Shown here: positions 22,158-23,174 of the stretch, one piece after another
Position numbering within the stretch: position 1 is the stretch's first letter
How the letters are laid out: every line of letters starts with the position of its first letter
Assembly: GCF_003259155.1 (NCBI RefSeq)
Contig: NZ_QGMQ01000007.1
Location: 62,001-126,000 of the forward strand
Origin: Marinimicrobium alkaliphilum
Lineage (GTDB): Bacteria; Pseudomonadota; Gammaproteobacteria; Pseudomonadales; Cellvibrionaceae
Length of the DNA: 64,000 bases
Direction of reading: 5' to 3'
Made by a program: the position numbers and the translations under genes
The notes under the pieces: model-generated
Told to the model about the DNA's origin: nothing
Seen by the model: the letters and a program-made list of their open reading frames with translations, nothing else
Databases searched by the model: none

Positions 22158-22296
22158 AGTCATGAAGCTCCTTGTTCATAGATGGGTGGAATAAGTGATA
22201 ACGGTGCGTATCCTATTAAATCTGCTGATTTAATTGAAGTAACAAATACCAATAGCGGTAATAGCCTTAGGTAATAACCGCCGAAGACGTCCGGCG

Positions 22297-22314
22297 TGTA
22301 GGAGATATCCCACA
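22297..22314. promoter_or_regulatory. GacA/UvrY-like upstream activating box
   Basis: TGTAGGAGATATCCCACA is an 18-bp imperfect palindrome (7 of 9 pairs). It fits the GacA box TGTAAG-N6-CTTACA with transitions only (TGTAGG-N6-CCCACA). It lies upstream of a GGA-rich non-coding stretch ending in a terminator, the arrangement seen at rsmX/rsmY/rsmZ and csrB/csrC promoters. Confidence 0.5.
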
Positions 22315-22360
22315 GTAATCTCCGCCTTTTGCCTCTGGAATCAAACGGTTAAAACGGGAA

Positions 22361-22492
22361 AACTGATCAGCGTAGGGATACGGCACAAGGAGTGTGAGCG
22401 AGGGAAAGGATGAATGCAACTACAGGGCCAGGCAAGGCCCATCCTGTAAGTGAGCCCCATACGGCATCCCCCTGTCGTATGGGGCTTTTTTT
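22361..22492 (+). ncRNA. Candidate RsmY/RsmZ/CsrB-type small regulatory RNA
   Basis: The 450-bp gap between ahpC and the HNH gene has no credible protein gene but ends in a strong plus-strand terminator (arms 22453-22463 and 22476-22486, then seven T). No plus-strand gene lies upstream, so the terminator needs its own transcript. Four GGA motifs occur between 22361 and 22452, one in a CAC-AAGGA-GTG hairpin loop, the form bound by CsrA/RsmA; two more lie just upstream. A GacA-like box is centred near 22305. The 5' end is a guess from a TTAAAA at 22349-22354, giving about 130 nt, like known Rsm RNAs. Expected role: sequestering CsrA/RsmA. Confidence 0.5.
22453..22492 (+). terminator. Strong intrinsic terminator
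   Basis: AGCCCCATACG (22453-22463) pairs perfectly with CGTATGGGGCT (22476-22486), followed by a run of T. The minus-strand reading has no T-run after the stem, so it acts on plus-strand transcripts, the proposed small RNA. Confidence 0.85.
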
Positions 22493-22613: not shown

Positions 22614-23174
22614 ATGGAAGCGAGAATTCTGCGACTCAATGCGGCGGGGCAGCCCATCGAATGGCTGCACTGGAAAGATGCGGTCTGTCTGTATGCCCGT
22701 GATCTGGTCTGCTGGAGCCTGGGTGGCTTTGTGCGCCGGGTACACGGCGGGCGCTCGCGCATCACCGGCCAGCAGACCACCATGGACTTACCGGCCATCA
22801 TCGCCTGCGGCGGCGGGCGTCTGGCCCAAATGCGGCGGGTGCCGCCCCTGACCAATCGGGCATTGTTTGCCCGTGATCACCATCAATGCCTGTACTGCGG
22901 CCGCCTGTTTGAATTTGGCCTGCTCTCGCGTGACCATGTCCACCCGATCAGCCGCGGCGGGCGCGACATCTGGAGCAACGTGGTCACGGCGTGCAAACGT
23001 TGCAATCAGCACAAAGGCAACCGCCTGTTGAGTGATATCAACATGGAGTTGCTGGCACTGCCCTTCTGTCCCAATACCGCCGAGTACCTGGCGCTGATCA
23101 ACAGCGACCGGATTCGCGGTGATCAGATGGAGTTTTTACGCCCGCAGTTTAGTCGGCGACGGGATTGGCACTAG
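22614..23174 (+). CDS. HNH endonuclease-family protein
   Basis: This 186-residue protein has a C-terminal HNH module: zinc pairs C92/C95 (CLYCG) and C127/C130 (CKRC), and the active-site-like DHVHP at 107-111 followed by [15 protein letters not shown]. The N-terminal part ([27 protein letters not shown]) is a conserved extension found in chromosomal HNH proteins of many gammaproteobacteria; its role is unknown. I chose the ATG at 22614 over GTG/TTG codons just upstream. Its stop overlaps that of the convergent chemoreceptor gene (shared CTAG). Confidence 0.85.

Follow-up and report, generated by a model that had tools for sequence, protein, structure and literature searches.

A predicted Gac/Csr-type small RNA gene conserved upstream of an HNH nuclease gene in Cellvibrionaceae and Microbulbifer

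Introduction

Does the gap between the minus-strand ahpC gene and the plus-strand HNH nuclease gene of Marinimicrobium alkaliphilum hold a small RNA gene of its own, and if so, of which kind? A sequence-only reading of this DNA had proposed a Gac/Rsm-type RNA behind a GacA box. Here, we examine that proposal in the window, i.e., the whole stretch of 64,000 nucleotides that was analysed (contig NZ_QGMQ01000007.1, positions 62,001 to 126,000), in the rest of the genome, and in related genomes. The best explanation, to which we assign a probability of roughly 0.87, is that the stretch is a Gac/Csr(Rsm)-type small RNA gene, belonging to a family that is absent from Rfam and whose members in Cellvibrionaceae and Microbulbifer precede an HNH gene. 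The family, its conservation and structure, the box, and the presence of csrA and gacA were all established computationally.

Architecture of the locus

The features of the locus are as follows (window coordinates).

22297–22314, plus strand: GacA/UvrY-type palindromic box TGTAGG-AGATAT-CCCACA (TGTAGGAGATATCCCACA), with zero mismatches to TGTRRGNNATNNCYYACA
22350–22355, plus strand: alternative −10, TAAAAC
22358–22363, plus strand: probable but weak −10, GAAAAC, placed by alignment A1 and inference (TAAAAT/CATAAT in relatives)
22371–22492, plus strand: predicted CsrA-sequestering small RNA of ~120 nt, from covariance models R2 and R1
22371–22382, plus strand: predicted hairpin CGUA-GGGA-UACG, whose loop holds GGA (fold)
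22383–22395, plus strand: predicted hairpin with an AAGGA loop (core CAC-AAGGA-GUG, 22384–22394; fold)
22398–22417, plus strand: double GGA segment GCGAGGGAAAGGAUGAAUGC, equivalent to the two-GGA loop of relatives, the stem here being only GC/GC
22425–22440, plus strand: predicted hairpin GGGCC-AGGCAA-GGCCC (fold and alignment with relatives)
22441–22450, plus strand: conserved motif AUCCUGUAAG, the reverse complement of the CAGGAU CsrA-site core (alignments A1–A3 and upstream flanks)
22453–22492, plus strand: intrinsic terminator with 14-nt arms (22453–22466 and 22473–22486), a 6-nt loop, and a T tract
22617–23174, plus strand: HNH nuclease gene (Pfam HNH_5), the conserved 3' neighbour outside the RNA, used as synteny anchor

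The palindrome, which stands 5' of the predicted promoter, is the sole match to TGTRRG-N6-CYYACA in the window; shuffled windows held 0.06 matches on average, and 5 of 100 held at least one. The earlier claim that the site fits TGTAAG-N6-CTTACA by transitions only was correct: three transitions separate the two, making this an imperfect box. Across the whole 3.79 Mb genome, the pattern occurs four times, while a reversed control pattern occurs once. A central AT is present in two of the four sites, the window's and one in apparent coding DNA (L014). Of the three sites outside the window, one lies ~130 nt 5' of the start codon of a ComEA-like gene and two lie in apparent coding DNA; only the window site is followed by a GGA-rich, RNA-like stretch. 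Allowing up to one mismatch, no box-like site in this genome other than the window's leads a GGA-rich RNA. Near-perfect long inverted repeats were also observed 5' of the ComEA-like gene (L012, 1081–1400; C1 near 363000), adjoining the GacA-box-like TGTAAGCCAAATCCCACA.

Four GGA motifs (at 22376, 22389, 22403, and 22408) fall within 22371–22452, where ~1.1 would be expected from the window rate of 1.37 per 100 nt, and most of them are placed in loops or single strands of an untranslated RNA. The loop of the third hairpin carries a GGA in nearly all relatives, while the window's AGGCAA does not. Several elements of the sequence-only reading were recovered here: its GGA-rich stretch, with all four GGA inside the predicted RNA; its CAC-AAGGA-GTG hairpin, which displays a GGA in the predicted fold; and its strong plus-strand terminator, in which 13 of 14 stem positions are paired and a T run follows. 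That reading had also seen no plus-strand gene ahead of the terminator, and we likewise found no plausible one, ahpC being a minus-strand gene and the HNH gene starting at ~22617. These features describe an independent gene with its own intrinsic terminator. The folding energy of the window RNA is not exceptional (z = −1.7). Taken on its own, the single-sequence evidence (0.06 boxes expected per window, z = −1.7) is modest; the case for an RNA gene is made by conservation.

Conservation upstream of the HNH gene

A DNA search of 57 relatives with the window sequence gave zero matches, because the primary sequence diverges too fast. HNH orthologues are present in most family members, and in several relatives a match to the box pattern lies ~500–1000 nt 5' of the HNH coding region. 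A common layout was found there: the box is separated by ~60 nt from a TATAAT-like −10, after which come an RNA containing 4–8 GGA, the motif ATCCTGT(G/A)AG, and a terminator. It precedes the HNH orthologue in Marinimicrobium, more than 20 Microbulbifer, Exilibacterium, Simiduia, Teredinibacter, and others. The box is 74 bases ahead of the predicted RNA in the window, and the same kind of box is ~72–75 nt ahead of it in relatives. When box and motif were required to be 135–180 nt apart, 33 of 80 HNH-upstream flanks contained the combination, while no downstream flank (0 of 80) and no shuffle (0 of five) did. GGA density was 5.5 per 100 nt in the RNA versus 1.3 in the surrounding DNA. The conservation among relatives that the sequence-only reading had proposed to check is thus evident: box, GGA, hairpins, and terminator are kept 5' of the HNH orthologue in at least five named genera.

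On the other side of the RNA, the genomes differ. Marinimicrobium, Simiduia, Teredinibacter, Gilvimarinus, and Pseudomaricurvus have upstream what we take, from reading the sequences, to be a motB-like flagellar motor gene, whereas the window has ahpF-ahpC, implying that the upstream side was rearranged in the window. A perfect palindrome, ATTAAATC-TGCT-GATTTAAT, lies 5' of ahpC at 22215–22234 and is possibly an operator.

Alignment of all members with MAFFT and RNAalifold was rejected since it misaligned the stems; we turned instead to a seed of Microbulbifer type and to covariance models. Model R1, built from 15 Microbulbifer-type sequences, matched the window at 22371–22489 (21.1 bits, E = 0.047 over 378 kb); on whole genomes under strict filters, it missed the window's own copy and most of the distant members. 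Model R2 was built from 21 diverse members, with the window and Marinimicrobium left out. Its sole match in the 64 kb was at 22371–22490 (38.1 bits, E = 2e-6), and it also recovered further members left out of its construction, among them both Marinimicrobium RNAs and Simiduia. The window copy combines a held-out model match with AUCCUGU(G/A)A and the box at the family spacing.

In alignment A4, both partners had changed in 25 of 27 pairs, and the paired share of cells was 94.5%, versus 81% for shuffled and 32–40% for slid partners. Because the fitting of A4 and A5 followed the structure of the model, the pair counts lean towards that structure, and more weight rests with the slid control and the held-out match. 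Twelve diverse members, including the window's, gave the same covariation picture.

A conserved motif complementary to CsrA sites

AUCCUGU(G/A)AG, which separates the last hairpin from the terminator, is nearly invariant. Outside the terminator, no part of the RNA is better conserved than these 10 nt, and they have no compensating partner. The motif is the reverse complement of CsrA sites of the form ACAGGAU/CAGGAUG, as known from the CsrA consensus and the repeat of CsrB. Such a Gac-controlled sponge family might carry its own anti-CsrA-site, AUCCUGU, either as a built-in regulator of the number of open CsrA sites or as an antisense seed against CsrA-type ribosome sites, an idea that we hold tentatively and consider somewhat less probable than its negation. 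If it is true, one RNA would both titrate CsrA and compete for CsrA's targets.

The antisense version of this idea would make the RNA dual in function, a CsrA sponge whose AUCCUGU(G/A)AG also acts as a seed against ACAGGAU-type Shine-Dalgarno/CsrA sites in at least one mRNA. The high conservation of the motif, its lack of a compensating partner, and its exact complementarity to the CAGGAU core all speak for such a seed. However, RNAfold pairs the motif with the RNA's own GGA in 26 of 28 members (with the 5'-most GGA in 20 of 28), and leaves it unpaired less often than shuffled motifs (0.37 versus 0.49). Among the ACAGGAT sites within the window, none was recognised as a target. We consider the dual function unlikely, and slightly favour a motif that would, by these predicted folds, mask one of the RNA's own GGA or form a closing helix with it, in most cases with the GGA nearest the 5' end. 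Covariation is uninformative on this pairing, as both sides are conserved for other reasons.

CsrA and GacA in the same genome

The genome encodes one CsrA and one clear GacA orthologue. The latter adjoins uvrB, has 50% identity to a UvrY query (an E. coli sequence used as probe), and has a recognition helix nearly identical to that of the query (SPKTVNSYRYRIFDKLGI). A search of this genome (G000) for BarA's sCache_4 domain gave no match. This does not imply that GacS is absent, because the periplasmic loop is one of the least conserved parts of Teredinibacter GacS (PMC2699552); the GacS kinase here may have a divergent sensor part. GacS, GacA, and CsrA have been noted in Teredinibacter (PMC2699552), and our literature search found no description of Teredinibacter Csr RNAs.

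Alternative explanations

Two further readings of the stretch were weighed. On the first, the family is real but the window's copy is a decaying, non-functional one, with another Rsm RNA serving the organism. The window copy is indeed the weakest among the copies examined, with the fewest GGA, a poor −10, a third loop without GGA, and an imperfect box, and relatives do have large GGA-rich RNAs behind GacA boxes. Yet this copy has kept its box core, motif, terminator, and spacing, a model that never included it still scores it at 38 bits, and no second GGA-rich RNA follows a box-like site of up to one mismatch in this genome. We therefore regard a dead copy as improbable, while the window copy may be weaker or partly degraded. 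That the stretch is a mere leader or attenuator of the HNH gene is far less probable still. The two share a strand and the neighbour is conserved, but the terminator ends ~125 nt ahead of the HNH start, and the distance between RNA and HNH varies by hundreds of bases in relatives, reaching ~6 kb in Gilvimarinus. An independent small RNA gene of the Gac/Csr type is the reading we retain.

Proposed mechanism and implications

By analogy with known sponge RNAs, the window RNA is presumably transcribed under GacA control and binds CsrA, and its conserved motif presumably has a role. Phosphorylated GacA would bind the palindrome, whose centre lies at about −65 by the start of the model, and would activate a single promoter. 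The ~120-nt untranslated RNA would then be made, ending at the terminator. Its GGA motifs, displayed in hairpin loops and short linkers, would bind and sequester CsrA, and CsrA-controlled mRNAs would be released once CsrA is titrated.

Among degraders of marine and plant polysaccharides, Cellvibrionaceae and Microbulbifer are prominent. The RNA could be a central switch for polysaccharide degradation, acting on biofilm, motility, and secreted polysaccharidases, and one gene of ~120 nt would offer a direct handle on Gac/Csr control in these degraders. The family also extends the sponge principle to RNAs that library models miss. Its invariant anti-GGA motif raises the question of whether sponge RNAs control how far they are occupied by CsrA, or additionally base-pair with mRNAs.

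Comparison with known Rsm and Csr RNAs

The sequence-only reading had described an rsmY/rsmZ/csrB locus of about 130 nt. The Gac/Rsm-type layout stands, conserved and ~120 nt long, but the RNA is not recognisable as RsmX/Y/Z or CsrB/C. The Rfam 15 models gave no family match on the window, RsmX, RsmY, PrrB_RsmZ, CsrB, and CsrC included at gathering score, so the covariance check proposed by that reading detected none of these. Weak matches to sX13, SorX, and similar Rfam families were terminator-driven and were rejected. The RsmY and RsmZ models matched nothing in the window's genome, and neither these models nor a survey of box-like sites revealed there the clearer rsm-type RNA that the reading had named as possible counterevidence. 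The weak RsmY/RsmZ matches inspected in relatives were terminators or coding regions, save in the sister-family genome G055 and probably in G049. R2, in turn, did not match the RsmZ, RsmY, and RsmX-like RNAs of G055. The RNA thus represents a new, predicted Rsm/Csr-type sponge family absent from Rfam, with AUCCUGU(G/A)AG as its hallmark.

Like RsmX, RsmY, and RsmZ of Pseudomonas (RF00195, RsmY; RF00166, PrrB_RsmZ), the window RNA is ~120 nt long and has a GacA-type box, GGA in hairpin loops, and an intrinsic terminator, in a genome that encodes CsrA and GacA. Unlike them, it has AUCCUGU(G/A)AG, which is absent from the three RNAs of G055, and lies upstream of an HNH gene in a genome without an RsmY/RsmZ model match. 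With CsrB and CsrC of E. coli it shares the sponge principle and the form of the 18-nt palindromic UvrY site, published for csrB as TGTGAGAGATCTCTTACA (PMC4682653). It differs from these two in being much shorter, with few GGA and no Rfam match, and its box is ~65 bp from the start rather than at about −183 as in E. coli csrB.

Tandem and expanded copies were seen in relatives: two small RNAs in tandem in Microbulbifer hainanensis (L148, 1543–1986); in two other Microbulbifer, a second copy that carries additional GGA hairpins (L157, 1985–2103; L159, 1992–2107); and, in Pseudomaricurvus (L184), a large RNA (1695) followed by a small-type copy (2006–2128). Such copies suggest that sponge RNAs grow by hairpin duplication. 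Large GGA-rich RNAs behind GacA boxes were observed at L112 (minus strand, from 547), L113 (plus strand, 549), L115 (plus strand, 545), L117 (plus strand, 567), L104 (minus strand, 559 and 890), and L184 (plus strand, 1695); those of L112, L113, L115, L117, and L104 were scanned and had no Rfam match. These Cellvibrionaceae RNAs differ from the small RNA in length (200–350 nt or longer), in GGA content (8–14 per ~200 nt), and in lacking AUCCUGU(G/A)AG. They resemble it in being GGA-rich behind the same kind of box at the same spacing, and are probably its CsrB-like companions.
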